Positions 2,796-34,035 of a DNA stretch of 47,622 bases are shown here, one piece after another. Origin of the DNA: an uncultured Cycloclasticus sp. (GTDB lineage: Bacteria > Pseudomonadota > Gammaproteobacteria > Methylococcales > Cycloclasticaceae). Both the position numbers and the translations under genes were made by a program. The stretch is from NCBI GenBank assembly GCA_913057515.1, contig CAJXOJ010000015.1:1-47622 (forward strand). The letters are read 5' to 3'. The notes beneath the pieces were generated by a model. It saw only the letters and a list, made by a program, of their open reading frames with translations. It ran no database searches and was not told the origin of the DNA. Positions within the stretch are counted from its first letter, which is position 1; each line of letters opens with the position of its first letter.

Positions 2796-3281
2796 TTATA
2801 CAGGGTATGCCATATAACGAGGTAATACGTTGGTATCAATAACCGCTTTACGCTGAAGAAAGCTTGCGCCATTTTCAATGAGTACGATGTCTTCGTAACG
2901 CCCAACACATAGGATTTCAGTCGTTTCAACAAGGTTCTGGGTATAAAAAACAGAGAAGTTAAAGTTAGCTTGGTAACGATTGTTGCCTAAATTTTCTATA
3001 GAGGTTAACTGAGTCATATGTCTTGTTTGGTAATGCTCAGTTGAGTCCTCTTGGATAACAGTAACCTGGGTTACTCTATCTTGTAAACGCTCATATTTAT
3101 CATCGAGCATAAAAGCGATAGGAAAACCGTTCGTTTCATTTTCATTTGAAATAAGTGTATAAGTGCCTTGTTTATTAAAACAAGCCAACCATTTATTCAT
3201 GTCTAATTTGTCGAGCGCACAAATATAGTCCCTATTTAAGTTCTCGATACTAAAAATTACGTTAGGTTCAATCTCACTCAT
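2796..3281 (-). CDS. Aromatic-ring-hydroxylating oxygenase, beta (small) subunit
   Basis: A 161-residue protein of the SnoaL/NTF2-like fold typical of Rieske oxygenase beta subunits, recognisable from the RLQDRVTQV segment near the middle, the YQTRHMTQL strand and the closing RYEDIV...RKAVIDT block. It supports the alpha3beta3 structure of the oxygenase and carries no metal site. Its start codon overlaps the end of the alpha gene by 4 bp, so the two are translationally coupled and made in equal amounts. The pair belongs to the same broad group as benzoate, salicylate and anthranilate oxygenases. The substrate cannot be told from the sequence. Confidence 0.88.
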   Translation of the reverse strand: MSEIEPNVIFSIENLNRDYICALDKLDMNKWLACFNKQGTYTLISNENETNGFPIAFMLDDKYERLQDRVTQVTVIQEDSTEHYQTRHMTQLTSIENLGNNRYQANFNFSVFYTQNLVETTEILCVGRYEDIVLIENGASFLQRKAVIDTNVLPRYMAYPV

Positions 3282-4468
3282 GATTCTGCCCTCTTAAAGC
3301 CCATTAGTTTTCTATAGTGTTCCCAGCGAGGTAGGTTTCCAGATTCATCATTTTGCCCAACCTGAAGATCAAGTTGGTACTCATCTTTAACGCCTTTCTG
3401 GAAAATAGCCATGCCTGGTGTTTTGTTGCCTTTATCAATTCGAGAGAAAATAGAGGCATCTTCCATACTTATTAAACCGCAAGGGCCGAGTAGGTTGCTT
3501 GATTGGCGAATTCTATGTGCAATCATTTCATCGTCATCATCTTCATGAGTGAAATAGGCATAATGGACTTCAATGCCTTTAGGGCCTTTAGGAAATGCAT
3601 ATCGAATGTTCAGCATATCCATATGTTTTGAATAAACCGTTAGTGGGAATTGCATCTGCACAATGGATCCGGTACTCGTTTCGGTGCCTTTAAAATCAAG
3701 TATAGATGCATCTTCTAATGCTGTAATGTCGTCAGGGATTTTAAGCTCAGACTCAAAAGATAAATGGCCATTTTCAGTTACATTTTGAACACCTTTTCCA
3801 CCTTGCCAATTAAGCATTTTAAACGCCAAATGTAGCAATGGAGCATGATAACCATCATTATCGCAATATGCTTTCCAGTTGCAGTCATAATGAACTTTTT
3901 GATAGCCGGCAAATTTTAATCGGCCGTCACCACCAAGAATACGGCTGAGAGGCTCATAGAAATCTTCCCCTAGGTATTCTTTAAGCGGTGCAACAGTATC
4001 GCTCATTGTAATGAAATATAAGCCACAAAACTCTTCCGTACGGAAGGTGGGTAAGCTAAAGTTCTTTTTGTCAAAATCAGGCGTAAATTCACGACTGTTT
4101 GGACAACCGACTAATTCACCCTCAGGGCTGAATAACCAACGATGATAAGGGCATTCAAATTCTGTTTTATTTCCTAAGCTTTCGGTAACAAGGGTTGTGC
4201 CCCGATGAGTACATGAGTTTTGAAAAATACGAATCTTATTATCTTCACCACGCACGGCAAAAATAGGAATCTCACCAAGGTCGGAGGCTTTGTAGTCTCC
4301 AATATTTGGAATTTCACTTTGGTGTACGACTGGGTGCCACTCCTCGCCATAAAATATTTTTTCAAGCTCAATGGGCCATAAGTCGGCACGTTCAAATACC
4401 TCTTTGGGTACTTCGTTATATTTAGCTGGCCACTCTAGGGTAGCCCTGTTATCGGGTGTTTGTGACAT
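3278..4468 (-). CDS. Aromatic-ring-hydroxylating oxygenase, alpha (large) subunit
   Basis: A 396-residue Rieske oxygenase catalytic subunit. The [2Fe-2S] Rieske ligands are Cys86, His88, Cys106 and His109 (CTHRG ... CPYHRW). The mononuclear iron site is Asp205-x2-His208-x4-His213 (DGYHAPLLH), with a likely third ligand Asp in GLISMEDAS. The start is supported by a strong ribosome site, TTGGAGGAAAT, directly upstream. It overlaps the beta gene and has its own promoter region, which carries a possible FNR box. It is divergent from the other alpha subunits here and keeps the GLISMED signature of the salicylate/anthranilate group. No dedicated ferredoxin or reductase is adjacent, so it presumably borrows PhnA3/PhnA4 or components outside the window. 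Confidence 0.9.
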   Translation of the reverse strand: MSQTPDNRATLEWPAKYNEVPKEVFERADLWPIELEKIFYGEEWHPVVHQSEIPNIGDYKASDLGEIPIFAVRGEDNKIRIFQNSCTHRGTTLVTESLGNKTEFECPYHRWLFSPEGELVGCPNSREFTPDFDKKNFSLPTFRTEEFCGLYFITMSDTVAPLKEYLGEDFYEPLSRILGGDGRLKFAGYQKVHYDCNWKAYCDNDGYHAPLLHLAFKMLNWQGGKGVQNVTENGHLSFESELKIPDDITALEDASILDFKGTETSTGSIVQMQFPLTVYSKHMDMLNIRYAFPKGPKGIEVHYAYFTHEDDDDEMIAHRIRQSSNLLGPCGLISMEDASIFSRIDKGNKTPGMAIFQKGVKDEYQLDLQVGQNDESGNLPRWEHYRKLMGFKRAES

Positions 4469-4545: not shown

Positions 4546-4559
4546 TTGATATAAGTCAC
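4546..4559 (-). promoter_or_regulatory. Candidate FNR-type box upstream of oxygenase alpha
   Basis: TTGAT-ATAA-GTCAC matches the FNR consensus TTGAT-N4-ATCAA at 8 of 10 positions with an intact TGA-N6-TCA core. A TATAGT -10 on the minus strand at 4504-4499 would place the box centre near -60, a class I activator position. Function is inferred. Confidence 0.4.
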
Positions 4560-4569
4560 TTGAGTGATG

Positions 4570-5310
4570 TTAGCGAGCAGAAGAGTTGGCTAGTTGTTCT
4601 AGTTTTTTGTTATCTAAAATTTGAATACTACGACCTTCTTTTTCAATGCAGCCAGTTTCAATCAGTTTAGAAAAAGATCGGCTCACGGTCTCAACAGCAA
4701 GGCCTAAATGGCTTGCAATATCTTGCCGTGTCATCGGTAATTGGAATGAAGTGGTTTGTAAATTAGAGGAGAGTAAACGGCGATGATGGAACAATAAAAA
4801 AGCAGCAAGTCGCGAAGAAGCTGCTTGAAGAGAGATAATATTTTGCACTTGGCTCATGGATGCTAAGGCTGTGCTATATAGCTTGACTGAGAAGTCAGAT
4901 AAAGTCGGAAATTCTTTCCGTATATTACGCAGAAGAGGGTAGTCTATTTTGCAGGCTAAGCTTGGTTCGAGTGCTTTTGAGCTATTAAGGGTCATACCAA
5001 TGCCGACGCTATCTAAGCCAATGACTTCCCCTGGTAAAAAAAAGTTATGCACATGTTCGGTGCCATGAGCAGAGACCATTTGGGTTTTAAATGAGCCGGT
5101 TTTTACGACGTACAAATAATTTGTTTTAGTGTGTTGTACAAATAAAGAGTCGCCAGTATTGTATGGAATATTGGTTTGGACAATATTTTCAAACCGGAAT
5201 AGTTTTTTAGCAGGCATGCCTGATGGCACACACCTTTTTGCTAGGGTACACTCGGAACAGTTTGAGGCGACTTTATTTTTTGTCATGTTGAATTTTTTTA
5301 TGCTAGCCAC
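4570..5310 (-). CDS. FNR-type oxygen-sensing transcriptional regulator (Crp/Fnr family)
   Basis: A 246-residue protein from the GTG start; an ATG at 5286 is an alternative and fits better if transcription starts near 5312. An N-terminal cluster Cys18-x2-Cys21-x5-Cys27 plus Cys120 lines up with E. coli FNR Cys20, 23, 29 and 122 at a constant offset of two, so all four ligands of the O2-labile [4Fe-4S] cluster are present. A cyclic-nucleotide-type beta-barrel and dimer helix follow. The C-terminal helix-turn-helix has VETVSR, matching the E-x2-S-R recognition residues that read TTGAT-N4-ATCAA. Family knowledge says it dimerises and binds DNA when oxygen is low. It lies among oxygenase operons, and matching boxes occur upstream of several of them. 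Confidence 0.9.
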   Translation of the reverse strand: MASIKKFNMTKNKVASNCSECTLAKRCVPSGMPAKKLFRFENIVQTNIPYNTGDSLFVQHTKTNYLYVVKTGSFKTQMVSAHGTEHVHNFFLPGEVIGLDSVGIGMTLNSSKALEPSLACKIDYPLLRNIRKEFPTLSDFSVKLYSTALASMSQVQNIISLQAASSRLAAFLLFHHRRLLSSNLQTTSFQLPMTRQDIASHLGLAVETVSRSFSKLIETGCIEKEGRSIQILDNKKLEQLANSSAR

Positions 5311-5416: not shown

Positions 5417-6670
5417 CTATAAATCCATCAGTTCTCGATAACCTTTCCAGAGCCCACGAATTAAACCTTCTGTCACTAGATGATCATCTCCTTTTGCTTC
5501 ATCACCAGCCATACGGATAACATTTGTAAATTCACCATCTCTGATAATGGCATTTTGACACAACTCTGTTGACTCACCGTCTTCCATTGAAATAAGCCCA
5601 GCAGGACCAATCAGGTTAAACTGCTTTAAACGAATATTCCTAAGTTCTTCGGTATCGTCTTTATAGCCAAAGTAGGTCCAGACCAACTCAAATTCATCCT
5701 TACCTTTGGGTAAAATCTGACGAAAAGCGAGTGTGTTTTGAATTTGTTGAACAACCAACGAAGGAAATAACGACAAGATAACTAAAGTCACACCATCTTC
5801 GAATTCTTGTTTGCCAGCCAATAAAGACATATCTTGAAGCTCATATTCGCCAGTTTGAAGCGTTCTAAGCTTATCCTTCTTCATATCATCAAGCGCAGCC
5901 TCATCTTCGGTGCCACCACTTGCCCATAGAACTGAATGGTAGTCGTTGTTGGCAATAGACTCACCTTTTTGTGAAGAGCGATACAAACCAAAGGTGGCGT
6001 GAAATAAATGCAATAAACTCGCGTGATAGGGGTCTTTGGTGTTTTCTGAGTAGAACTTCCAATTCCCTTTAATATATTGCCGAGTTGTACCGAGTATTTC
6101 AACCGGCTTATTTAAGATTCGGCGCATATGGTGGCTGACATCTTCACCCATATATTCTTCAATATCTGGGGTATCATCGCTAAAGGTACCAAAAACAGCA
6201 CCATGATAATTGACGACACGAACTTTGCGTAAGCTGTGTTGTTTTTTATCAAAGTCTTTTGGCATACCACCCTTGCCAGCTAACCCGCGCTGAAACGGTA
6301 CGCCATGAAGGTCGCCTTTTGCATCATAAGCCCACTGGTGATAAACACAGGTGTACGCACCATCTTCAGATTTACCATGACGTTCACGGCAAATCTCGGC
6401 GCCACGGTGAGCACAACGGTTAACCCAAGCATAAATTTCATCATCTTGTCCACGAGTGACCACCACAGGGGTGTCGCCAATATAGGTTGATTTGAAGCTT
6501 CCCTTTTCTGGTATTTCTGCTTCAGAGGCTAAAAAATTCCATGTTGGACCATTGTAGATCCTTGCCTGTTCCAAGTCGTAGACCTCTTGATCATTGAAAA
6601 CGGAATAAGGCACCGAAGTATAGTTTTCATCAGCAGACCATTTTAAGTGTGGAGGTGTTATTGCATTCAT
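5417..6670 (-). CDS. Salicylate/anthranilate-type Rieske oxygenase, alpha subunit (NagG/AndAc-like)
   Basis: A 417-residue catalytic subunit with Rieske ligands Cys86, His88, Cys108 and His111 (CAHRG ... CVYHQW) and iron site Asp213-x2-His216-x4-His221 (DPYHASLLH). The longer loop between the Rieske pairs, the VYHQWAYDAKG stretch and the GPAGLISMEDGE motif are typical of salicylate 5-hydroxylase and anthranilate dioxygenase large subunits, which hydroxylate aromatic acids formed late in PAH breakdown. The start has a good ribosome site (GGAGAAAG). It is downstream of its beta subunit and closed by a strong terminator. The gene at 40782-42032 is a close paralogue, about four residues in five identical by eye. 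The exact substrate is not determined. Confidence 0.9.
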   Translation of the reverse strand: MNAITPPHLKWSADENYTSVPYSVFNDQEVYDLEQARIYNGPTWNFLASEAEIPEKGSFKSTYIGDTPVVVTRGQDDEIYAWVNRCAHRGAEICRERHGKSEDGAYTCVYHQWAYDAKGDLHGVPFQRGLAGKGGMPKDFDKKQHSLRKVRVVNYHGAVFGTFSDDTPDIEEYMGEDVSHHMRRILNKPVEILGTTRQYIKGNWKFYSENTKDPYHASLLHLFHATFGLYRSSQKGESIANNDYHSVLWASGGTEDEAALDDMKKDKLRTLQTGEYELQDMSLLAGKQEFEDGVTLVILSLFPSLVVQQIQNTLAFRQILPKGKDEFELVWTYFGYKDDTEELRNIRLKQFNLIGPAGLISMEDGESTELCQNAIIRDGEFTNVIRMAGDEAKGDDHLVTEGLIRGLWKGYRELMDL

Positions 6671-6681
6671 TATCTTTCTCC

Positions 6682-7167
6682 TTAAACAGGGATGACCATT
6701 AACGTTGTGATTCGGTGAGTATCGTAAATAGCGCTGCGCTTTTTAAACTTAAGCACACCTTTATCGCGAACAACCTCATCGACATAACGGCCTATGTTAT
6801 AAACCGTGCTTTCACCGTCATTGCAGGTTTTAAAAACAGCGTAATTTGACTGTACATGGAACGTCTCGCCGTCGTCTGTTTTGATGACAGGATTACTAAT
6901 AATGTGGCGATACCACTGAACTTGGTACACATTGGCATGACGTAAGGCGGTAATACGGTCTTCTAACATGCCTCGACTATCACACCACATTACTGCCGTA
7001 GGTAGGCCCACTTCATGGTTTTCTCTTGGAATAACCTGGTATAGGCATTCGTCAGTAAAAAATTCAGGCCAGCGCTCTAAGTCATCATCGTCGATACATT
7101 GGACGTAGGCGTTTAAAAGATCTTCTACTTCGTTTTTTAGTTCAAGAGTTAAGCTGCTGTTTGCCAT
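6682..7167 (-). CDS. Salicylate/anthranilate-type Rieske oxygenase, beta subunit (NagH-like)
   Basis: A 161-residue small subunit starting MANSSLTLEL. This ATG is chosen because GAGGAGGCC lies just upstream; the frame stays open further upstream without a ribosome site. Recognisable blocks are CIDDDDLERWPEFFTDEC near the start, the RGMLEDRITALRHAN helix and YRHIISNP, all common to NagH-type subunits. It partners the alpha subunit 11 bp downstream in an operon. Its promoter carries the best-placed FNR-like box of the window, so this oxygenase is the strongest candidate for oxygen-dependent control. Confidence 0.88.
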   Translation of the reverse strand: MANSSLTLELKNEVEDLLNAYVQCIDDDDLERWPEFFTDECLYQVIPRENHEVGLPTAVMWCDSRGMLEDRITALRHANVYQVQWYRHIISNPVIKTDDGETFHVQSNYAVFKTCNDGESTVYNIGRYVDEVVRDKGVLKFKKRSAIYDTHRITTLMVIPV

Positions 7168-7204: not shown

Positions 7205-7252
7205 GTGGTTGAGTATACGGGTGTCACTCTATAAGAAAATGATTATGGTCAA
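7205..7252 (-). promoter_or_regulatory. Candidate class II FNR-dependent promoter of the NagH/NagG-like operon
   Basis: On the minus strand a box TTGAC-CATA-ATCAT (7252-7239) matches the FNR consensus at 8 of 10 positions with intact TGA/TCA core. A -10 TATACT lies at 7217-7212, giving a start near 7205 and a box centre at about -40.5. That is within one base of the -41.5 position used by FNR at class II promoters, which typically lack a -35. Confidence 0.6.
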
Positions 7253-7940: not shown

Positions 7941-8918
7941 ATGAATAAGAAACCAATTGTAGCCACGATGATAGGCGACCCAGCGGGAATTGGGCCAGAG
8001 GTAGTTGCTAAAGCTTGGGCAAGTGGTGAAGTTCATCAATATTGTCAGCCTGTTTTAGTCGGTAGTGCTGAAGTAATGCAGGATGTCGTCGATGAAAACA
8101 AGTTGCCGCTTAAAGTAAATAAGATTCAATCGGTGGACGATAAGACAAGCGATCCTAGCATTATAGATATTTTGGATTCTGGGAAATTTGATATGGGAAA
8201 CTATGTCAAAGGTCAGGATAATACATCTTGCGGTCAAATTAGTGCGGATTGGTTAGAGGAGATGGATCAGTTGGCCTTGTCGGGTGCAGTAGACGCGACC
8301 GTTATGGCGCCGATCAGCTCAGTTTCCATGAAAATGGCTGATGTGTTGGATAAAATTATTGAAATAGAGCCGGGCCATAGTTATTTGTTTTTAATTAGTG
8401 GGCCATTAAGGGTTATGCACTTAACAGACCATATTCCTTTACGCGATGTTTGTACGCTCATAAATAAGGACTTGGTGGCGAGTGCGATTGAAAAACTTAA
8501 TGGATCATTAATTGAGTGGGGTATTGCTAATCCGCGAATCGTTGTTGCTGGGCTGAATCCACATGCGAGTGGCATGGAAGAAGATAATGAAATTAGACCA
8601 GGTGTTGAGCAAGCAAAAGCGCTGGGTATTAATGTTGAAGGCCCAATGCCGCCAGACTCTGTTTTCAGGCAATGTATAGAAGACAAATATGATGTTGTAT
8701 TGGCGATGTTTCATGACCAAGGGCATATCGCGGTTAAAACATGGGGGTTCTCAGGTAATTGTGCTCTAATTATGGGCCCTCCTTATCTTCATATGTCAGT
8801 AGCGCACGGGACGGCTTACGATCTCGTTGGAACCGGTAAGGCAGACCATACGATGATGTTAGAGGCGATTAAGTTAACGGGTAACTTAGCCGCAGGTAAT
8901 GGTTTTTTTAGTGAATAA
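7941..8918 (+). CDS. PdxA-family dehydrogenase, probably catabolic (TphB-like)
   Basis: 325 residues of the PdxA (4-hydroxythreonine-4-phosphate dehydrogenase) family: GDPAGIGPE at 12-20, metal-ligand histidines at 164 (DHIPLRDV), 208 (GLNPHASG) and 258 (MFHDQGH), and the closing AHGTAYDLVGTGKAD. These enzymes use NAD to oxidise a secondary alcohol next to a metal site. The family also includes TphB, which oxidises and decarboxylates the cis-diol of terephthalate made by a Rieske oxygenase. Because it sits between oxygenase operons, a role on a carboxylated cis-dihydrodiol is more likely than vitamin B6 synthesis. The usual GHTE motif reads GHSY here, a departure from biosynthetic PdxA. Ribosome site CAGGAGAAAG is good. 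Confidence 0.85.
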   Translation: MNKKPIVATMIGDPAGIGPEVVAKAWASGEVHQYCQPVLVGSAEVMQDVVDENKLPLKVNKIQSVDDKTSDPSIIDILDSGKFDMGNYVKGQDNTSCGQISADWLEEMDQLALSGAVDATVMAPISSVSMKMADVLDKIIEIEPGHSYLFLISGPLRVMHLTDHIPLRDVCTLINKDLVASAIEKLNGSLIEWGIANPRIVVAGLNPHASGMEEDNEIRPGVEQAKALGINVEGPMPPDSVFRQCIEDKYDVVLAMFHDQGHIAVKTWGFSGNCALIMGPPYLHMSVAHGTAYDLVGTGKADHTMMLEAIKLTGNLAAGNGFFSE

Positions 8919-9050: not shown

Positions 9051-10304
9051 ATGAGTGCTCAAGAAATAGTTAATAAAATCGATGTAAATGGCAATCATTC
9101 GCCTTTTGCTGTCTATTTAGATGAAGATGTATTTGAGTTGGAGCAGGAGACTTTATATCGAGGAAAGGTATGGTCGTATATTGGGCTAGATGCTGAAGTT
9201 CCCAATGCAGGCGACTATAAAACAACCTTTGTTGGGGATACTCCAATTGTGCTTACGCGGGGCGAGGACGGCAGTCTTAATGCCTGGGTAAATCGTTGCG
9301 CTCATAAAGGTGCGGTGGTTTGTCGTGAGCGTCATGGGCACTCTGAAGATGGCGCATTTACCTGTGTTTATCATCAATGGGCTTATGATGCTAAAGGTAA
9401 TTTAAAAGGCGTTCCTTTTAGGCGCGGAATGAAGGGTCAGGGTGGTTATGCAAAAGACTTTGATATGAAAGATTATGGTTTGCAAACATTGCGTGTTCAG
9501 ACGGTTGCGCAAATGGTGTTTGCAACTTTTGACCCAGAAACACCCGATTTAGAAGAGTTTCTTGGTGAAAAAATGTGTGCCAATATTAAGCGTATTATGC
9601 ACAAGCCGCTTAAAATAATTGGGCATACTCGCCAATTTATGAAAGGTAACTGGAAGGCATATGCTGAAAATAGCCGCGACAGCTACCATGGTGCCTTATT
9701 GCATTTATTTTACCCAACATTTGGCATTTATCGACAGGGGCAGATTAGTGAAGGAATAACCGATGAAGTCGGTTGTCATAACTATTTTAATGTTTCAGCG
9801 CCGCCTAAAGATGACCTCGATTATAAAGACTATGCGGATGAAGCAAATAGAGAAATGCAAGGGCCGCACCAGCTACAAGATACGCGCGTTTTAAATTTTA
9901 TTCCTGAGCGAGATGATAACGTTGCTTTAAGCATTCAATCGCTTTTTCCTAGCGTGGTGTTGCAGCAAATTCAAAATACATTAGCAGCTCGTCAAGTATT
10001 ACCTAAAAGTACTAACGAGACAGAGTTGGTGTGGACTTTTTTTGGTTATGAGGATGATGATGCTGCTATGGATGAGCATCGGTTACGCAATATCAATCTA
10101 GTTGGGCCTGCAGGTTTAATCTCAATGGAGGATGGTGAGGCTGTTGAGTTGGTTCAAAACGGCGTCCACCGTGATGGAGAGTTGCGTTCATTTATTGAAA
10201 TGGGTGGCAATGATGTTGAAGATTACACCAGTCCGATGGGGATGGATGAAAATGCCGTACGTGGTTTTTGGAAAGGCTATCGAGCAGTAATGGCTAAAGA
10301 CTAA
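9051..10304 (+). CDS. Rieske oxygenase alpha subunit without adjacent beta (NagG-like)
   Basis: A 417-residue catalytic subunit with Rieske ligands Cys83, His85, Cys105 and His108 and iron site Asp210-x2-His213-x4-His218 (DSYHGALLH). It belongs to the same salicylate/anthranilate group as the genes at 5417 and 40782 but is clearly more diverged from them than they are from each other. All catalytic residues are intact. Its ribosome site (AGGAGAAAA) is good. The next gene, 22 bp away, is another alpha subunit (PhnA1) rather than a beta, so this subunit has no beta of its own type next to it and might pair with the beta at 6682-7167 or act alone. It probably opens the phn operon. Confidence 0.9.
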   Translation: MSAQEIVNKIDVNGNHSPFAVYLDEDVFELEQETLYRGKVWSYIGLDAEVPNAGDYKTTFVGDTPIVLTRGEDGSLNAWVNRCAHKGAVVCRERHGHSEDGAFTCVYHQWAYDAKGNLKGVPFRRGMKGQGGYAKDFDMKDYGLQTLRVQTVAQMVFATFDPETPDLEEFLGEKMCANIKRIMHKPLKIIGHTRQFMKGNWKAYAENSRDSYHGALLHLFYPTFGIYRQGQISEGITDEVGCHNYFNVSAPPKDDLDYKDYADEANREMQGPHQLQDTRVLNFIPERDDNVALSIQSLFPSVVLQQIQNTLAARQVLPKSTNETELVWTFFGYEDDDAAMDEHRLRNINLVGPAGLISMEDGEAVELVQNGVHRDGELRSFIEMGGNDVEDYTSPMGMDENAVRGFWKGYRAVMAKD

Positions 10305-10326
10305 TTTAAGAGAAAGGGTAGAGGAC

Positions 10327-11709
10327 ATGATAGATATGGATAAACTGGTTGATACAAAAGAATCAACACAGTCAAAAAAAGTTTTTTGGGACCAAGAGGT
10401 CTATGATCAAGAAATAAAAAATATTTTTGGGCGTAGTTGGTTGTTCTTAACGCATGAATGTATGCTGGAAAAGAAGGGTGACTTTATTACCACCAAAATG
10501 GCTGAGGACTCTGTGATTGTTACTCGTCACACAGACGGTTCATTAAAAGCATTTGTTAATTCGTGTACGCATAGAGGGAATAGCGTTTGTACGGCAGACA
10601 GTGGTAATACGAAATCATTTGTGTGTAACTATCATGGCTGGGTGTTTGGAACCGATGGAAAATTAGTGGATGTACCATTAAGAGAAAAATGTTACCACGA
10701 TGAGTTGGATAGAGACTCGTTAGGTCTAAAAACCATCAGAGTTGAGAGCTATCGAGGTTTTGTTTTTGGTTGCTTTGATGAGACAGCCCCTAGTTTAGAA
10801 GATTTTCTAGGTGATTGGGGTTGGTACTTAGATACATGGATGGTAGGTGCTGGCGAAGGGGCCGAATTGGTTGGCCCGCCGATGAAGTCTATTCTTAAAT
10901 GTAATTGGAAAGTGCCAACAGAGAACTTTGTGGGCGATGGGTATCATGTTGGCTGGACGCATGCATCTGCCTTAAACGTACTCGGTGGAGAGCTAGGTGG
11001 GTTAGCTGGAAACCAAGCAGAGATGCCGTTTGATGAACTAGGTATCCAAGTTACCACACGACATGGGCATGGTTTTGGTGTCATCGATAACGCAGCTATT
11101 GGGATTCATGCTAAAAGAGATGAATATGCTAAGTACATGGAAGACACTATACCTAAGGTAGCAGAGAAACTTGGTGAGCCAAGAGCCAAGTTATTTAATG
11201 GTCACTGGAATTGTACAACTTTCCCAAATTGTTCATTTTTATATGGAACGAATATCTTTAAAGTTTGGCACCCACGTGGGCCACATGAGATTGAAGTATG
11301 GTCTTGGGTCATTGTGCATAAAGACCTGAGTGATGAAGGCAAAAGGGAGGTTGTTAAGCAGGCAGCTAGGAGTTTTGGTACAGCGGGCACGTTAGAGAGT
11401 GATGATGGTGATAATATGGTGCAATCAACACATAGTAATAGAGGCACATATACACGGGAAGGAACGATGAATTCGACTATGGGTCAAGGGTATGAAGGTG
11501 AACACCCAGACTACCCGGGTATTGTTGGTTCTAGCTTTATTGGGGAAACATCTTACCGTGGGTTTTATCGTTTTTACCAAGAAATGATGTCAGCAGACAG
11601 TTGGGATGAGATACGTGCTAACGATGAGCATTGGGCTGACTGTTTTCCAAATAAGGATTATTGGAAAGACCGTTTAGCGGCAAAAGCTGCGCAGGCTGAG
11701 GGAGAATAA
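10327..11709 (+). CDS. phnA1: PAH dioxygenase, alpha subunit (PhnA1; BphA1/NahAc-like)
   Basis: A 460-residue subunit with Rieske ligands Cys80, His82, Cys100 and His103 (CTHRGN ... CNYHGW) and iron site Asp204-x2-His207-x4-His212 in ENFVGDGYHVGWTHAS, nearly identical to the naphthalene dioxygenase motif around D205/H208/H213. The C-terminal GETSYRGFYRFYQEMM block is typical of naphthalene/biphenyl dioxygenases. It catalyses cis-dihydroxylation of aromatic rings using O2 and electrons from PhnA3. Length, motifs and the neighbouring phnA2 and phnC fit the PAH dioxygenase of Cycloclasticus, hence the symbol. It ends one base before the beta gene. Confidence 0.93.
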   Translation: MIDMDKLVDTKESTQSKKVFWDQEVYDQEIKNIFGRSWLFLTHECMLEKKGDFITTKMAEDSVIVTRHTDGSLKAFVNSCTHRGNSVCTADSGNTKSFVCNYHGWVFGTDGKLVDVPLREKCYHDELDRDSLGLKTIRVESYRGFVFGCFDETAPSLEDFLGDWGWYLDTWMVGAGEGAELVGPPMKSILKCNWKVPTENFVGDGYHVGWTHASALNVLGGELGGLAGNQAEMPFDELGIQVTTRHGHGFGVIDNAAIGIHAKRDEYAKYMEDTIPKVAEKLGEPRAKLFNGHWNCTTFPNCSFLYGTNIFKVWHPRGPHEIEVWSWVIVHKDLSDEGKREVVKQAARSFGTAGTLESDDGDNMVQSTHSNRGTYTREGTMNSTMGQGYEGEHPDYPGIVGSSFIGETSYRGFYRFYQEMMSADSWDEIRANDEHWADCFPNKDYWKDRLAAKAAQAEGE

Positions 11710-11710
11710 G

Positions 11711-12244
11711 ATGCATAATACAGAAGCGAAAGAACGTGTATCTGCACAGTTACATTACGAATTATCCCAGCACTATTATCAAGAAGCGACTTTACTACAA
11801 GATGCAGAGTTTTCGACTTGGATTGAGACTTTTGTTGCTAAAGATTTGCATTACTGGATGCCAGTGACAGAGCGCCGTTATGCTAAAGATAAGCGCCCTG
11901 AACCCACACCATATGACATGGCAATATACAATGATGATTATGATGAAGTAAAGGATCGAGTGGCGCGCTTGCTAACAGGAGCAGTGTGGATGGAAGATCC
12001 ACGGTCGACGGTTCGTTATCTGATCACTAATATTGAAGCGTTTCATACCGATAAAGATGATGAGTTTGTGGTGCGTAGTAACTTTGCGGTATATCGGCAT
12101 AGAGGCCAATTAGAACACTCTGAGCATGTTGGATGTCGTCAAGATTTAATACGCAAAGTGGGTGATGGTTTTCAATTAGCACGTCGTAAAGTGTCTTTAG
12201 ATGCGAGAGTAACAGAGGATAAAAATTTATATATATTCTTCTGA
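11711..12244 (+). CDS. phnA2: PAH dioxygenase, beta subunit (PhnA2)
   Basis: A 177-residue small subunit, longer than the other betas here and of the BphA2/NahAd style: an N-terminal helix with YYQEATLLQD, a WMPVTERR strand, the DRVARLLTG segment and the closing RRKVSLDARV. It starts one base after the phnA1 stop, so the two are co-translated and form the alpha3beta3 terminal oxygenase. The gap to phnC is only 44 bp, placing all three in one operon. Confidence 0.92.
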   Translation: MHNTEAKERVSAQLHYELSQHYYQEATLLQDAEFSTWIETFVAKDLHYWMPVTERRYAKDKRPEPTPYDMAIYNDDYDEVKDRVARLLTGAVWMEDPRSTVRYLITNIEAFHTDKDDEFVVRSNFAVYRHRGQLEHSEHVGCRQDLIRKVGDGFQLARRKVSLDARVTEDKNLYIFF

Positions 12245-12288
12245 TCAATAAGTTGTAAATTTAAAATTAAATAAAGAGGATTTAACAA

Positions 12289-13185
12289 ATGGGACAAGTA
12301 ACAGAATTAGGTTATATGGGGTTTAACGTCACGGATTTAGACGCTTGGCGTGAGTATGCAACAAAGTGTGTTGGTTTAGAGATTGAAGAAGGTGATCGTG
12401 ATGATCGTTTTTACTTAAGAATGGATAATCAACACCACCGTTTTGTTATTCATCAATCTGATGAAGATGATTTGGCTTATGCTGGCTGGCGCGTGAAGGG
12501 TTTTGAAGAATTTAAAGCGATTCAGCAGCACTTAAAAGATAATGGCGTTGATTTTCGTGTCGCATCTGAAGAAGAATGTGAAGAACGTTTTGTATTAGGT
12601 CTGCTTAAATTAGAAGATCCGTCTGGAAACCCAACAGAAATTTTCTATAGTCCTCAAATGGATGTAATGAAGCCTTTTCACCCAGGTCGCCCTATGTATG
12701 GAAAATTCCTGACAGGTGATCAAGGTATAGGTCATTTTATTATTCGTTCGATGGATGATGAAGCGATGTATGCATTTTATTCAATGTTAGGTCTTGTTGG
12801 GTCGGTGGAGTATAAAATTAAATTACCGAATGGCATGATCGCAAAACCTTACTTTATGCATTGTAACGATCGTCAGCATTCATTGGCGTTTGGACTGGGC
12901 CCAATGGAGAAAAGAATCAATCACCTCATGCTTGAGTATACAGAGTTAGATGATTTAGGGCTAGCTCACGATACAGCACGTCGAGAGGGTATTGATGTGG
13001 CAATGCAGCTTGGAAAGCATTCGAATGACCAGGCGTATACATTCTATTTTGCGACACCATCAGGGTGGTTGCTCGAGCTAGGTCACGGCGCTCGTGAAGC
13101 GATGAGAGATCAAGAGCACTACACAGGTGATATTTTTGGCCACAAACCGGAAGCAACAGGTTATGGGATGAATATTGATATTTAA
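12289..13185 (+). CDS. phnC: Extradiol ring-cleavage dioxygenase (PhnC; BphC/NahC-like)
   Basis: A 298-residue two-domain type I extradiol dioxygenase. The iron ligands in the C-terminal barrel are His149 (GIGHF), His212 (NHLMLEY) and Glu263 (LLELG), matching His146, His210 and Glu260 of BphC. It cleaves 1,2-dihydroxynaphthalene or 2,3-dihydroxybiphenyl-type catechols next to the diol with O2 in the cytoplasm. A strong ribosome site (AAAGAGGAT) precedes the ATG, and a strong terminator follows, so this is the last gene of the phnA1A2C operon. The products would pass to PhnD or the hydrolase at 42223-43071. Confidence 0.93.
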   Translation: MGQVTELGYMGFNVTDLDAWREYATKCVGLEIEEGDRDDRFYLRMDNQHHRFVIHQSDEDDLAYAGWRVKGFEEFKAIQQHLKDNGVDFRVASEEECEERFVLGLLKLEDPSGNPTEIFYSPQMDVMKPFHPGRPMYGKFLTGDQGIGHFIIRSMDDEAMYAFYSMLGLVGSVEYKIKLPNGMIAKPYFMHCNDRQHSLAFGLGPMEKRINHLMLEYTELDDLGLAHDTARREGIDVAMQLGKHSNDQAYTFYFATPSGWLLELGHGAREAMRDQEHYTGDIFGHKPEATGYGMNIDI

Positions 13186-13292: not shown

Positions 13293-13700
13293 TCATGGGT
13301 GGTTTAATAAGGTGTCGCAGATACGCTGAAAAGCGGGTGTTAGCATTTCTCGATACTTTTCATCAATTTCTACATCTTTCATGGCCTGCTGCATACAGTG
13401 CATCCAAGCGTCAGATGCCTGTTGGTCAATTTTAAATGGCTTATGCTGTTTAGTAATACATGGGCTGCCGTGTTTAGCGACAAATAAAGGCGGACCACCT
13501 AACCAACCAGAAAGGTATTCAAATAAACCATGCCGAATAGCTGATAAGTCTTCTTTATGCATGGCTCGAATAGTTTTTGCCTCTTCGTCAGAGTCCATAA
13601 TGTCGTAAAATCGGTTAACAAGTTTACGGACACCCTCTTCACCGCCAATCCAGTCGTACATAGTTGTTTGTTGTTCGGTCGCTTGATTTGTATCAGTCAT
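13293..13700 (-). CDS. Truncated haemoglobin, group II (TrHbO type)
   Basis: 135 residues of the 2-on-2 globin family: TMYDWIGGEEGVRKLVNRFYDIM opens helix B region, with the Tyr/Trp-rich FEYLSGWLGGPPLF segment, the proximal His in KHGSP, and DAWMHCMQQAM in the G helix, as in group II (YjbI-like) proteins. The group binds O2 tightly and some members detoxify NO or peroxide, or deliver O2 to oxygenases. The first Met has GGAATA upstream. It is transcribed against phnC and away from trpB, with a TGA-N6-TCA palindrome in the shared upstream region. A role in supplying O2 to the ring oxygenases is inference from location. Confidence 0.88.
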   Translation of the reverse strand: MTDTNQATEQQTTMYDWIGGEEGVRKLVNRFYDIMDSDEEAKTIRAMHKEDLSAIRHGLFEYLSGWLGGPPLFVAKHGSPCITKQHKPFKIDQQASDAWMHCMQQAMKDVEIDEKYREMLTPAFQRICDTLLNHP

Positions 13701-13758: not shown

Positions 13759-13772
13759 ATGACTCAAATCAA
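13759..13772. promoter_or_regulatory. Candidate FNR-type box between globin and trpB
   Basis: ATGAC-TCAA-ATCAA keeps the TGA-N6-TCA core and matches the FNR consensus at 8 of 10 positions. No well-spaced -10 is obvious on either strand, so the target gene is uncertain. Confidence 0.35.
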
Positions 13773-13872: not shown

Positions 13873-15072
13873 TTGAAATACAACACAATTCCAATGCCTG
13901 ATGATAAAGGCTATTTTGGCGAATACGGTGGGCAAGTTATCCCGCCTGATCTCGTTACCATCATGGATGAAATCAAGGATGCATACTTAGATATTTCTAA
14001 GTCAAAGTCTTTTAAAGATGAGTTAAATGATTTATATGTTCACTATGTTGGTCGGCCAAGCCCTATTTTTTATGCGAAGCGATTAACAGAAAAGTTAGGT
14101 GGTGCCAAAATTTTTCTAAAAAGAGAGGATCTAAACCATACGGGGGCACACAAGATAAATCATTGTCTCGGGGAGGCATTGTTAGCAAAGCACATGGGTA
14201 AAACCAAAGTGATAGCGGAAACGGGCGCAGGCCAACATGGCGTTGCACTAGCAACAGCTTGTGCGTTAGTGGGCATTGATTGCGAGATACACATGGGTGA
14301 GGTGGATATTGCAAAAGAGCATCCGAATGTCACTAAAATGAAAATACTGGGTTGTACGTTGATACCGGTGACTCGAGGAACTAGGACGCTGAAAGATGCA
14401 GTTGACAGTGCGTTTGAAGAATACCTAAAAGACCCTGTTAACTTCATTTATGCCATAGGTTCAGTCGTAGGGCCACATCCTTTCCCAATGATGGTTCGCG
14501 ACTTCCAGAGTATTATTGGTAAAGAAGCACGAGCACAGTTTCTTGAAGAACAAGAATGCTTGCCAGATGTGATTACCGCTTGTGTTGGCGGTGGGTCAAA
14601 TGCGATGGGTTTATTTACAGCGTTTTTAGACGATGAGGAAGTCAAAATCGTCGGTGTCGAGCCAGCAGGTCGGGGGCTGGATACAGATCAGCACGCCGCA
14701 ACCATGAGCAAAGGAATAAAAGGAGCTCTTCATGGTTTTGAATGCTACAACTTACAAGATGAGTCTGGAGAAACATTACCTGTTTATTCAATTGCTTCAG
14801 GCTTAGACTATCCAGGGGTTGGTCCTCAGCACTGTCTATTGAAAGATTTAGGTCGTGTGGAGTATGTAGCGGTAGATGATGATGACTGTGTTGACGCTTT
14901 TATGACACTTTCACGCGTGGAAGGGATAATTCCGGCATTAGAAAGTGCGCATGCGGTAGCTTATGCGATGAAAATTGCAGGCAACATGGCCGCTGATCAA
15001 TCTATATTGGTTAACTTATCGGGGCGTGGTGACAAGGATGCAGATTTTATTGCTGATAAGTTGGGGCTGTAG
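13873..15072 (+). CDS. trpB: Tryptophan synthase beta chain (TrpB), stand-alone
   Basis: A 399-residue TrpB1-type protein: PLP lysine Lys94 in HTGAHKINH, catalytic Glu116 in AETGAGQHG, phosphate loop GGGSNAMG, and SGRGDKD near the C-terminus. It condenses indole and serine to tryptophan, normally fed by TrpA. The start is TTG, supported by GAGGAG six bases upstream. It is not followed by trpA, trpF is not next to it, and it lies between a globin and a DUF2461 gene inside the PAH cluster. It could be the main trpB, displaced from its usual partner, or a second copy that scavenges indole. The family assignment is secure. Confidence 0.92.
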
Positions 15073-15882: not shown

Positions 15883-15936
15883 TGAATTTAGTCACCTAAA
15901 GTTGATTTAAAACACGACTTGTTTGTTTGTGTTGAA

Positions 15937-15942
15937 TATAAT
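15937..15942 (+). promoter_or_regulatory. Perfect -10 (TATAAT) upstream of phnA4
   Basis: TATAAT lies 45 bp before the phnA4 start, but no good -35 is found at 16-18 bp spacing. It may depend on an activator; a modest call. Confidence 0.35.
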
Positions 15943-15986: not shown

Positions 15987-17009
15987 ATGACCAGTTATAA
16001 CGTAAAAATAAATGAGCAAGAGGTCGAGTTTAAATGTGAGGAAGGCGACACAATTTTGCGTGCAGCATTGCGCGCTGGTGTAGGCGTGCCTTACGAATGT
16101 AACTCAGGCGGTTGTGGTGCTTGTAAAGTTGAAGTGTTAAGCGGTGAAGTCGACGATATTTGGGAAGGTGCGCCTGGGCTTTCTCCCCGTGATATTAAAA
16201 AGGGCCGTAAATTAAGCTGCCAGTGTATTCCGACAGAAGATTGCGAAATAAAAGTACGTTTAAATCCCGAGGCTGTACCTATTCATAAGCCAGTTAAGTC
16301 AGCGGCGGTTTTATTTGAAATAAATAAACTCACCGATGACATGGCAGAGTTCTGCTTCAAAACTGAACATGCGGCTCATTTTAAGGCGGGGCAATTTGCT
16401 TTATTAGACTTTCCTGGTATTACTGGTTCGCGTGGTTATTCAATGTGTAATCTGCCTAATGAAGAAGGCGAGTGGCGTTTTATTATTAAAAAAATGCCAG
16501 GTGGTAACGCAACAACGGCCTTATTTGAAGATTATGAAGTAGGCGCTGAGATTGTGATCGATGGGCCATACGGCTTGGCGTATTTAAAGCCAGAAATTCC
16601 TAGAGACATTGTTTGTGTGGGCGGTGGTTCAGGTCTATCTCCTGAAATGTCTATCATTAAAGCGGCCGCGAAAGATGATCGCTTGAGCGATAGAAATATT
16701 TACTTGTTCTACGGAGGCCGTACACCAAAAGATATTTGCCCACCAGCTTTAATAGAAGCTGACGCTGATTTGAAAGGCCGAATTAAGAACTTTAATGCGG
16801 TGTCAGATGTAGAAGCTGCAGAAGCAGCAGGTTGGGATGGTGATGTTGGATTCATCCATGAGTTATTAGGAAAAACATTAGGAGATAAGTTGCCAGAGCA
16901 CGAGTTTTATTTCTGTGGGCCGCCTCCAATGACAGACGCTTTAACGCGTATGTTGGTAACGGAATACAAAGTTCCGCTTGAGCAAATTAACTACGATCGT
17001 TTTTATTAA
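15987..17009 (+). CDS. phnA4: Ferredoxin reductase of the PAH dioxygenase (PhnA4)
   Basis: A 340-residue three-domain electron carrier. The N-terminal plant-type [2Fe-2S] domain has Cys38-x4-Cys43-x2-Cys46 and Cys78 (CNSGGCGAC ... LSCQC). An FAD domain with RGYSMCNLP and an NAD domain with GGGSGLSP follow. It passes electrons from NADH to the Rieske ferredoxin PhnA3. This NahAa/XylZ-like architecture, rather than the BphA4 type, matches the phnA4 of Cycloclasticus. The start follows GAGGGG. It heads the phnA4-phnA3-phnD group, about 4.3 kb from the terminal oxygenase genes. Confidence 0.93.
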   Translation: MTSYNVKINEQEVEFKCEEGDTILRAALRAGVGVPYECNSGGCGACKVEVLSGEVDDIWEGAPGLSPRDIKKGRKLSCQCIPTEDCEIKVRLNPEAVPIHKPVKSAAVLFEINKLTDDMAEFCFKTEHAAHFKAGQFALLDFPGITGSRGYSMCNLPNEEGEWRFIIKKMPGGNATTALFEDYEVGAEIVIDGPYGLAYLKPEIPRDIVCVGGGSGLSPEMSIIKAAAKDDRLSDRNIYLFYGGRTPKDICPPALIEADADLKGRIKNFNAVSDVEAAEAAGWDGDVGFIHELLGKTLGDKLPEHEFYFCGPPPMTDALTRMLVTEYKVPLEQINYDRFY

Positions 17010-17116
17010 GCCTTAAGTAGAGTAAAGTAAACGACAGTCACTTTTCGTCAAGCTACGATGTTATGGTTTTTGACGATAGAGTGAATTTTTATCAATATTA
17101 TTAAAGAGTTAAAATT

Positions 17117-17434
17117 ATGAGCAATGTAATATTATGTAAAACGGATGAGGTTAAAGACGAAGCGCCAGTAGCGGTTACGCCGGATGGTTTTCCAGCATTA
17201 GCGGTCTATGTATTTGAAGGTGAGTATTATGTCACTGACAACTTGTGTACGCATGGTATGGCGATGTTGACGGACGGTTACCAAGATGGTGATGAAGTAG
17301 AGTGCCCATTCCATGGCGGTGCGTTTTCTATTAAGACAGGCGAGGCAACTTCATTCCCTTGTCAAATACCGGTTAAAACATATCCTGTTACGATTGAAGA
17401 TGGTAATGTTTGTATTCCTGCTGCGAGTAACTAG
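17117..17434 (+). CDS. phnA3: Rieske-type ferredoxin of the PAH dioxygenase (PhnA3)
   Basis: A 105-residue soluble Rieske ferredoxin with ligands Cys44, His46 (CTHG), Cys63 and His66 (CPFHGG). It shuttles electrons from PhnA4 to the oxygenase alpha subunits. It is the only ferredoxin gene in a window with six alpha subunits, so it may serve more than one. The 107-bp gap upstream carries a 7-bp inverted repeat and a possible weak promoter (TTGACG at 17070). phnD follows after 11 bp. Confidence 0.93.
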   Translation: MSNVILCKTDEVKDEAPVAVTPDGFPALAVYVFEGEYYVTDNLCTHGMAMLTDGYQDGDEVECPFHGGAFSIKTGEATSFPCQIPVKTYPVTIEDGNVCIPAASN

Positions 17435-17445
17435 GAATTAATGGG

Positions 17446-18042
17446 ATGAATGAGTCTATAGATTTTTATTTTGACATGATGAGTCCATTTAGTTATTTGG
17501 CTCATACCCAATTACCTGATTTGGCGAGAAAATATGGCTTAACCGTCAATTACTTGCCTATGAGTATACCGCCAGCAAAAATTGCAGCAGGTAATTACGG
17601 GCCTTCAAATCGTGAAGTGCCTGCTAAAATAAATGTTATGTTGGCGGATATAAAGCGTTGGGCGGCGCATTACGATGTTCCGTTTACGTTTCCAAAAAAC
17701 CTTGAAGTTGAGCCTTGGAATGTTGGCGTTTTATATGCTAATGATAAGGGTCAAGCAGAAGCGTATGTGGATGCAGCCTATGCAAAGATTTGGGCAGATG
17801 GTTGTGATCCCTCAGATATGGCTGAGCTATCGCAAGTTGCTGAAAAAATGGGTTGGAACGCAGGTGAGTTTATCGATTATGTGCAGTCAAATGAAGGGCA
17901 AACTCGTTTCCGTAAGGCTTGTGTAGAGGCGCATAAAGCAGGTGTTTTTGGTGCGCCTATTATGATGCTAGATGACCAAGCTTGGTGGGGTAATGATCGC
18001 TTTATGTTTATTGAAGAATACCTTAAAGGCCGTAAAAGTTAG
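17446..18042 (+). CDS. phnD: 2-hydroxychromene-2-carboxylate isomerase (PhnD; NahD-like)
   Basis: A 198-residue DsbA/GST-kappa-like protein. FYFDMMSPFSYLAH at the N-terminus holds Ser13, equivalent to the glutathione-contacting serine of NahD; GVFGAPIMMLDDQAWWG near the C-terminus is also typical. It converts 2-hydroxychromene-2-carboxylate to the trans-benzylidenepyruvate in the naphthalene pathway, directly after the PhnC step. It ends the phnA4A3D group and overlaps by 4 bp the 3' end of the convergent GNAT gene. Confidence 0.92.
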   Translation: MNESIDFYFDMMSPFSYLAHTQLPDLARKYGLTVNYLPMSIPPAKIAAGNYGPSNREVPAKINVMLADIKRWAAHYDVPFTFPKNLEVEPWNVGVLYANDKGQAEAYVDAAYAKIWADGCDPSDMAELSQVAEKMGWNAGEFIDYVQSNEGQTRFRKACVEAHKAGVFGAPIMMLDDQAWWGNDRFMFIEEYLKGRKS

Positions 18043-34003: not shown

Positions 34004-34035
34004 ATTTAAAAAATGACTTAAATCATTTTTTAAAT
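34004..34035. promoter_or_regulatory. 32-bp perfect palindrome with FNR/CRP-like core upstream of the envelope cassette
   Basis: Arms ATTTAAAAAATGA and TCATTTTTTAAAT are perfect over 13 bp around CTTAAA. The centre ATGAC-TTAA-ATCAT has the TGA-N6-TCA core. It lies just upstream of a likely promoter. It could alternatively be a weak AT-rich terminator for glmS, but the stem has one G-C pair per arm. Confidence 0.5.

Follow-up and report, generated by a model that had tools for sequence, protein, structure and literature searches.

The marine PAH degrader Cycloclasticus is widespread, and the regulation of its degradation pathways has been published as c-di-GMP driven. In Cycloclasticus sp. strain P1, the protein DPR-2 (Q91_2232) has been described, together with DPR-1, as a c-di-GMP-binding activator of naphthalene and phenanthrene genes (Wang and Shao 2021, PMC8547461). 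According to the main text of that study, SPR gave a KD of DPR-2 for c-di-GMP of about 0.04 uM, and c-di-GMP tightened the binding of DPR-2 to three promoters about 100- to 1300-fold. Residues L91, D92, T99 and L100 were reported to bind c-di-GMP, and in the quadruple mutant binding was weakened to about 1e-5 M. ChIP-seq pointed to three main target operons, one of which is Q91_2220 to Q91_2218, and P1 without dpr-2 lost growth on naphthalene and phenanthrene, with expression of the three operons eliminated (PMC8547461). Structural models of DPR-2 were built on the templates 5e44 and 5cvr, and the protein was purified with 0.1 mM EDTA and 1 mM DTT, with no anaerobic step named (PMC8547461). 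For C. pugetii PS-1, later work describes PAH gene expression that does not depend on the substrate (PMC10338962) and, in a second paper, expression patterns unlike the co-regulation of P1.

A second group of related systems is formed by the O2-responsive FNR proteins, with solved chains 5cvr, 5e44 and 8qto. In E. coli FNR, the cluster ligands are Cys20, Cys23, Cys29 and Cys122, and the recognition residues Glu209, Ser212 and Arg213; we take 5cvr and 5e44 to come from A. fischeri, and 8qto is presumably the L28H variant. Three Cys4 FNRs, Pseudomonas putida PP_3233 and PP_3287 and Paracoccus FnrP, carry substitutions next to their ligands and are reported to react more slowly with O2, at 38, 55 and 29 M-1 s-1, respectively, compared with 280 M-1 s-1 for ANR (PMC4771820, PMC4505428); for E. 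coli FNR the rate is given as 180-200 M-1 s-1 (PMC4771820). Finally, HbaR of Rhodopseudomonas palustris, which regulates 4-hydroxybenzoate degradation, is a CRP/FNR member controlling aromatic degradation, as cited in PMC8547461, but in an anaerobic pathway.

Here, we focus on a 47,622-nucleotide stretch of DNA (the window) from an uncultured Cycloclasticus sp., in which the initial annotation had recognized a complete O2-sensing FNR homologue embedded among O2-consuming ring oxygenases. Unlike that of HbaR, the pathway of the window needs O2.

A DPR-2 orthologue with the ligand set of FNR

Judged by sequence comparison, the regulator of the window is an orthologue of DPR-2, since gene order, length and four key residues agree. 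A single-contig, P1-like genome (G001) served as a stand-in for P1, and the comparison was made through published gene numbers, lengths and residues. Counted outward from the orthologue, the gene order of G001 agrees one by one with the Q91 numbers 2218 to 2244. The lengths also agree for the reductase 2220 (340 aa), the ferredoxin 2219 (104 aa), the ring-cleavage dioxygenase 2224 (298 aa), 2225 (177 aa), the regulator 2232 (238 aa) and the permease 2242 (302 aa), with 445 versus 443 aa for the rhd2 alpha subunit 2244. Here, 2225 matches a beta subunit, whereas the table in PMC8547461 names it alpha. L91, D92, T99 and L100, the residues mutated in DPR-2, are identical in the window protein and in G001.

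When the GTG at 5310 is taken as start, the reading frame (4570-5310, minus strand) encodes 246 aa with cysteines at positions 18, 21, 27, 120 and 221, a numbering that is kept below. The start is probably better placed at the ATG at 5286, giving 238 aa, which is the published length of DPR-2 (PMC8547461). The same length from an ATG is found in 7/14 members of the DPR-2 clade defined below, the others having 230-242 aa.

Alignment with a solved FNR chain places C18, C21, C27 and C120 on FNR positions 20, 23, 29 and 122, and E207, S210 and R211 on positions 209, 212 and 213, so that both the full set of [4Fe-4S] cysteines and the E-x2-S-R recognition helix read from the sequence at the outset hold. 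The protein exceeds the Pfam cut-offs for PF00027, PF13545 and PF00325, which correspond to a cNMP-like sensor domain and a Crp-type HTH. With the NCBI Fnr model NF008365, it reaches 146.2 bits, the best score among 11 models, against a curated cut-off of 228; under the NCBI naming rule it is thus an FNR-type paralogue and not Fnr. Its top matches among solved structures are chains named "FNR type regulator" (E about 1e-32, similarity over 231 residues), and 5e44 and 5cvr, listed under this name, are among the best of them. Among named relatives, two Cycloclasticus MAGs come closest (93% and 85% identity), followed by a third match at 26%. The regulator is a known one, and its FNR nature was not found discussed in the main text of PMC8547461, which contains none of the terms cysteine, 4Fe-4S and Fe-S.

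Three Cys4 paralogues and their conservation

The genome that holds the window (G000; 2.48 Mb, 97 contigs, 89.9% complete) has seven HTH_Crp_2 matches, six of them over the cut-off, and three of its proteins carry the four cysteines. These are the window regulator, a second paralogue (G000:C30) adjoining an oxygenase alpha/beta pair, and a third (G000:C4), likely the respiratory FNR, which lies by ccoN and a metal P-type ATPase. E-x2-S-R is present in all three. Here, ccoN, copper P-type ATPase and Hcp are names read from translated sequences and do not come from family searches.

Among 18 genus-level genomes searched, 14 had a match at E 1e-20 or better; the alignment comprised 29 full-length genes out of 31 rows, excluding two that are truncated at the ends of contigs. 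The four cysteines and E-x2-S-R are kept in 29/29 aligned genes, in an alignment whose entry filter was the first three cysteines together with E-x2-S-R and which all 29 Cycloclasticus loci entered passed. In the tree, these genes form three clades, with 14 DPR-2 genes from 12 genomes, seven genes of the second paralogue (eight tree rows, one a duplicate) and eight of the respiratory type. The DPR-2 and second-paralogue clades are sisters (100/99) and stand apart from the respiratory type, the order-level FNRs and the solved FNR, with long branches flagged. The order-level FNRs are eight proteins compared from a search in which 57/201 genomes had a match at 1e-30, identity outside the genus being 35% or less.

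Within the DPR-2 clade, the four cysteines are kept in 14/14 genes despite a mean pairwise identity of 54% and a minimum of 36%, and they are among the 53 invariant columns of 241. Up to residue 45, only C18, C21, L23, C27 and P29 are invariant; the non-ligand C221 is kept in 12/14 genes.

This pattern bears on the view that DPR-2 is mainly a c-di-GMP-responsive activator in which the cysteines are leftover or structural and O2 plays no part. The published affinities, quadruple mutant and mutant phenotypes (PMC8547461) speak for it, as do the presence of L91, D92, T99 and L100 in the window protein and the 28 GGDEF-domain matches in the 2.5 Mb genome (some of which may be fragments of a single gene), which are in line with an active c-di-GMP network. 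Yet the four docked residues are kept in only 11, 7, 8 and 11 of the 14 clade genes, compared with 14/14 for the cysteines, and the second contact is E in the other seven. L91 and D92 also lie in a G-[LF]-D/E segment common to FNR proteins of other groups, and we infer from this sharing that the quadruple mutant may simply misfold. In addition, the templates of the DPR-2 model are themselves listed as FNR type regulators, and the PAH expression of C. pugetii PS-1 is reported as substrate-independent (PMC10338962). This view of DPR-2 as mainly c-di-GMP-responsive, with no part for O2, seems unlikely to us.

The second Cys4 paralogue (L003 / L056, G000:C30) adjoins another dioxygenase alpha/beta pair, and in G008 and G015 it shares one PAH cluster with DPR-2. 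It was also considered as DPR-1, published with 242 aa (PMC8547461), and is kept as a candidate only, as its residues at the docked places, L/E/Y/L in 7/7 genes, do not match the published L93/D94/T101/L102. Two further proteins were rejected as DPR-1 for want of an N-terminal cysteine set, namely the regulator beside a hydroxylamine-reductase-like gene (G001, G002, G007) and a 241-aa CRP-like protein at 928 kb of G001.

Association with ring oxygenases

The window holds two aromatic catabolic gene blocks around a housekeeping block (mnmG, parAB, atp, glmUS), and the features relevant here are collected in Table 1. The start of the dioxygenase beta gene was revised because the conserved -10 hexamer lies inside the GTG reading, which is probably wrong, and GAGGAGG precedes the ATG.

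Table 1. Genes, FNR-type boxes and -10 hexamers of the window (positions within the 47,622-nucleotide stretch; a dot marks no assigned strand).
Feature	Positions	Strand	Remarks
Ring-hydroxylating dioxygenase alpha	3278..4468	-	beta at 2796-3281
FNR-type box GTGACTTATATCAA	4546..4559	-	centre 84 bp before dioxygenase alpha 3278-4468; core aligned in 9/9 genomes
dpr-2 orthologue, FNR-type regulator	4570..5286	-	238 aa from ATG 5286; Cys10/13/19/112 in 238-aa numbering
Ring-hydroxylating dioxygenase alpha	5417..6670	-	
Dioxygenase beta	6682..7167	-	start revised from GTG 7227 to ATG 7167
-10 hexamer TATACT	7212..7217	-	21 nt after dioxygenase-B box, 8/8 genomes examined
FNR-type box TTGACCATAATCAT, dioxygenase beta/alpha operon	7239..7252	-	core in 9/9 aligned genomes
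FNR-type box ATGATTCAGGTCAA	7837..7850	+	between orf141 (-) and pdxA-like gene (+); core in 7/7 genomes
Dioxygenase alpha; HcaE/HcaF-like alpha + beta; extradiol dioxygenase (298 aa)	9051..13185	+	match Q91_2227 to Q91_2224 by order and length
Truncated haemoglobin (Bac_globin)	13293..13700	-	
FNR-type box	13759..13772	.	between truncated haemoglobin (-) and trpB-like gene (+); 6/6 on haemoglobin side, 6/7 on trpB side
Degenerate FNR-type box TTGATTTAAAACAC	15902..15915	+	before ferredoxin reductase operon; same or close form in 7/7 genomes
-10 hexamer TATAAT	15937..15942	+	21 nt after reductase box, 6/6 genomes and G002 by alignment (7/7)
Ferredoxin reductase (340 aa), Rieske-type ferredoxin, 198-aa protein	15987..18042	+	match Q91_2220 to Q91_2218
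FNR-type box ATGACTTAAATCAT	34013..34026	+	about 106 bp before DUF1302/DUF1329/MMPL gene row; core in 4/4 genomes

The tie between the FNR homologue and ring oxygenases, proposed from the window, is supported by the genomes compared. Within 1.5 kb, 12/14 DPR-2 genes and 6/7 second paralogues have an oxygenase alpha gene, compared with 0/8 genes of the respiratory type, and for the other two DPR-2 genes an oxygenase pair is found about 2 kb away. All 11 genomes with a close relative of the neighbouring oxygenase (E below 1e-200) have a DPR-2 clade gene. Among the seven genomes without such a relative, the clade gene is present in G009 only, and six lack both; two of these six (G005 and G006) nevertheless have a respiratory-type FNR. 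G011 (83% complete), one of these seven, with no DPR-2 match at 1e-20, has other oxygenases, among them an rhd2-type gene with a 9/10 box upstream.

Residues beside the ligands

The window regulator differs from the E. coli and A. fischeri FNRs at residues 24, 28 and 154 (E. coli numbering). Position 28 is R in eight, K in three, Q in two and D in one of the 14 DPR-2 genes, compared with L in all FNRs of the respiratory type (8/8) and of the order-level set (8/8). At position 24 the DPR-2 clade has T, V, I, A, F or M, never Ser, compared with S in 8/8 respiratory-type FNRs. In E. coli FNR, the changes S24F, S24P and S24R and changes of D22 are reported to slow the reaction with O2 or to give aerobic activity (PMC4771820, PMC4505428), and L28H to make the protein O2-tolerant (PMC12343034); the substitutions described for PP_3233, PP_3287 and FnrP are unlike those of the DPR-2 clade. 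The changed positions 24 and 28 suggest that a DPR-2 cluster would be less reactive with O2 than that of E. coli FNR. Position 24 is, however, Arg in 8/8 order-level FNRs, so that changes there are common, which counts against an O2-desensitized protein.

A different use of such a cluster is also conceivable, in which it resists O2 and reports NO or iron-sulfur supply, so that the cell makes iron-rich oxygenases only if it is able to assemble clusters. The residue at position 28 is a polar or charged one throughout the clade (14/14 genes), and for the L28H variant of FNR tolerance of O2 is described together with sensitivity to NO (PMC12343034); furthermore, the genes behind the boxes treated below include Rieske proteins, a ferredoxin and the truncated haemoglobin. 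Against this, His is the only residue at position 28 described in the literature consulted, and the effect of Arg, Lys, Gln or Asp may be a different one; no Fe-S assembly gene was recognized behind the conserved boxes of the window. We regard a sensor of NO or cluster supply as decidedly improbable.

The loss of Asp154 was considered as a sign of O2-independent dimers and rejected, as this residue is also missing from the respiratory-type FNR of Cycloclasticus. FnrP without Asp154 is reported still to switch (PMC4771820), and ANR, which keeps Asp154, is reported as dimeric without cluster.

Conserved boxes and promoter geometry

TGA-N6-TCA occurs 28 times in the window (13.7 expected; 0/100 shuffles as high). 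Eight sites are intergenic (4,411 bases) and are spread over seven gaps, one of which holds an overlapping pair, compared with 0.75 expected and 0/2000 shuffles reaching eight. The 13 other spacers (2 to 15) gave 0-3 intergenic sites each. The initial annotation had counted six gaps with such palindromes and left coding DNA aside; the enrichment is real, the number of gaps is seven, and the density is higher in intergenic than in coding DNA (Fisher p 0.003), contrary to the outcome named at the outset as refuting the proposal, as many boxes in coding as in promoter DNA. A genome scan with the strict box TTGAYNNNNRTCAA gave 37 places, compared with eight for a reversed-pattern control, but proved weak as a test, as 30/37 lie within ORFs; by the ORF calls used, the remaining 7/37 are intergenic, and the window contains none of the 37.

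For conservation, 17 upstream regions were aligned across genomes (two pairs of regions share a gap; an 18th, with three genomes, was dropped), and a box was called conserved when TGA-N6-TCA was present in every genome within two alignment columns. This was found in 5/17 regions, namely those of oxygenase A (9/9), oxygenase B (9/9), pdxA (7/7), the haemoglobin (6/6) and DUF1302 (4/4), the remaining regions having it in at most 2/9 genomes. Of 640 dyads, six have any fully conserved region, and the next best has two, both in one gap. Accordingly, the palindromes at 4547, 7240, 7838, 13760 and 34014 are conserved in related genomes, and those at 15883 and 43624 are not. The rule also misses the conserved reductase-promoter box at 15902. 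Upstream of the regulator itself no conserved box indicative of autoregulation was found (at most 2/9 genomes).

FNR proteins bind TTGAT-N4-ATCAA-like boxes at class II promoters, in which the box is centred at -41.5. Box to -10 spacing was tested for seven upstream regions and is constant in two, dioxygenase B and the reductase, where the 21 nt put the box centre near -41.5, which by its sequence is a class II arrangement, as in FNR of E. coli and A. fischeri. At the pdxA promoter the spacing varies from 21 to 25 nt with weak -10s, and at the haemoglobin promoter none was seen in five genomes. In G001, boxes are present in two of the three published DPR-2 targets, the reductase and rhd2. The rhd2 promoter holds a perfect TTGATTTGAATCAA with 10/10 consensus bases, which is also found in G002, and 6/9 rhd2-type homologues checked (9 of 25 rows) have a box, which is absent in 3/9. 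For the third target, the 2227 promoter, the gap before the gene itself is without a box in G001; one lies a gene upstream.

These boxes are not attributable to the window protein alone, because two further Cys4 paralogues share its recognition residues. They may serve the respiratory FNR (G000:C4) or all three paralogues, with DPR-2 acting on a subset only, and a box of the same form, ATGACATAAATCAT, is found between the respiratory-type FNR gene and ccoN. Herbaspirillum likewise is reported to have three Fnr orthologues with hierarchical interactions (PMC5934665). On the other hand, DPR-2 travels with the neighbouring oxygenase (11/11 genomes, and six without both, of which G005 and G006 keep the respiratory-type FNR), and in the published dpr-2 knock-out three operons were no longer expressed (PMC8547461). 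Such a shared or subordinate role is, in our view, very unlikely.

Proposed mode of action

In the reading that we prefer, and hold with belief and doubt in about equal measure, dpr-2 encodes a specialized, O2-desensitized FNR paralogue that would activate PAH operons, perhaps together with c-di-GMP. This reading builds on the ligand set, its conservation, the boxes, the promoter spacing and the paralogy observed here, and on the positive regulation and DNA binding published for the orthologue; from the sequence we infer the cluster, the O2 response and its direction. A DPR-2 dimer would bind TTGAY-N4-RTCAA-like boxes, in class II position at least at the reductase and dioxygenase-B promoters, and would activate the PAH operons, electron-transfer genes and probably a truncated haemoglobin. 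A [4Fe-4S] cluster would most likely sit on C18, C21, C27 and C120, and should be less reactive with O2 because the regulator must work in cells that need O2 for their oxygenases. It might remain active under the low aeration that is usual for these cells and lose strength at high O2 only, so that the supply of oxygenases, ferredoxin and haemoglobin would be raised as O2 falls, with c-di-GMP as a second input if the published binding is right. At the outset, either such a boost or a shut-off of the pathway had been envisaged; the latter fits badly with an orthologue that regulates positively and without which P1 does not grow on naphthalene and phenanthrene (PMC8547461). Several observations count against the preferred reading. 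The published DPR-2, purified with EDTA and no anaerobic step named, bound DNA tightly once c-di-GMP was added, so that a cluster may not be needed (PMC8547461); the spacing from box to -10 is constant in just two of seven regions; the 2227 promoter lacks a box directly before its gene; and the 9/10 box of G011 occurs in a genome with no DPR-2 match at 1e-20.

More tentatively, and with doubt outweighing belief, the two sister Cys4 FNRs, both linked to ring oxygenases, may have an O2-tolerant cluster and together act as a positive master switch for the aerobic breakdown of PAHs. This switch would read O2 (or cluster supply) as well as c-di-GMP, so that oxygenase, electron-transfer and haemoglobin supply would increase with falling O2, and the c-di-GMP mechanism published so far would describe one half of a mechanism gated by O2.

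If these regulators are iron-sulfur FNR proteins, the protein used in the published work probably had no cluster, and oil breakdown in low-oxygen water and sediment would have O2 as one of its control variables. The putative targets of the window regulator, in contrast to those of FNR in E. coli and A. fischeri, are aerobic catabolic genes, so that here FNR would drive O2-consuming catabolism instead of silencing it. With its conserved boxes and cysteines, the system makes the question of O2 sensing testable in a laboratory host.

Further genes of the aromatic clusters

A gene for a PdxA-like dehydrogenase (7941-8918, plus strand) is first in an aromatic gene row, and the box ATGATTCAGGTCAA heads this pdxA-RHD-bphC row; a TrpB-like gene (13873-15072, plus strand) also lies within the aromatic cluster. 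The truncated haemoglobin gene is located within the PAH cluster with its conserved FNR-type box about 65 bp upstream (6/6 genomes), and its product could serve O2 supply to the oxygenases or NO removal. Near the second paralogue, a CRP/FNR regulator without N-terminal cysteines is found by an Hcp-like gene (L052:6526-8954; L053:7425-9847; L055:12812-15233), and the two perhaps form an NO-response pair.
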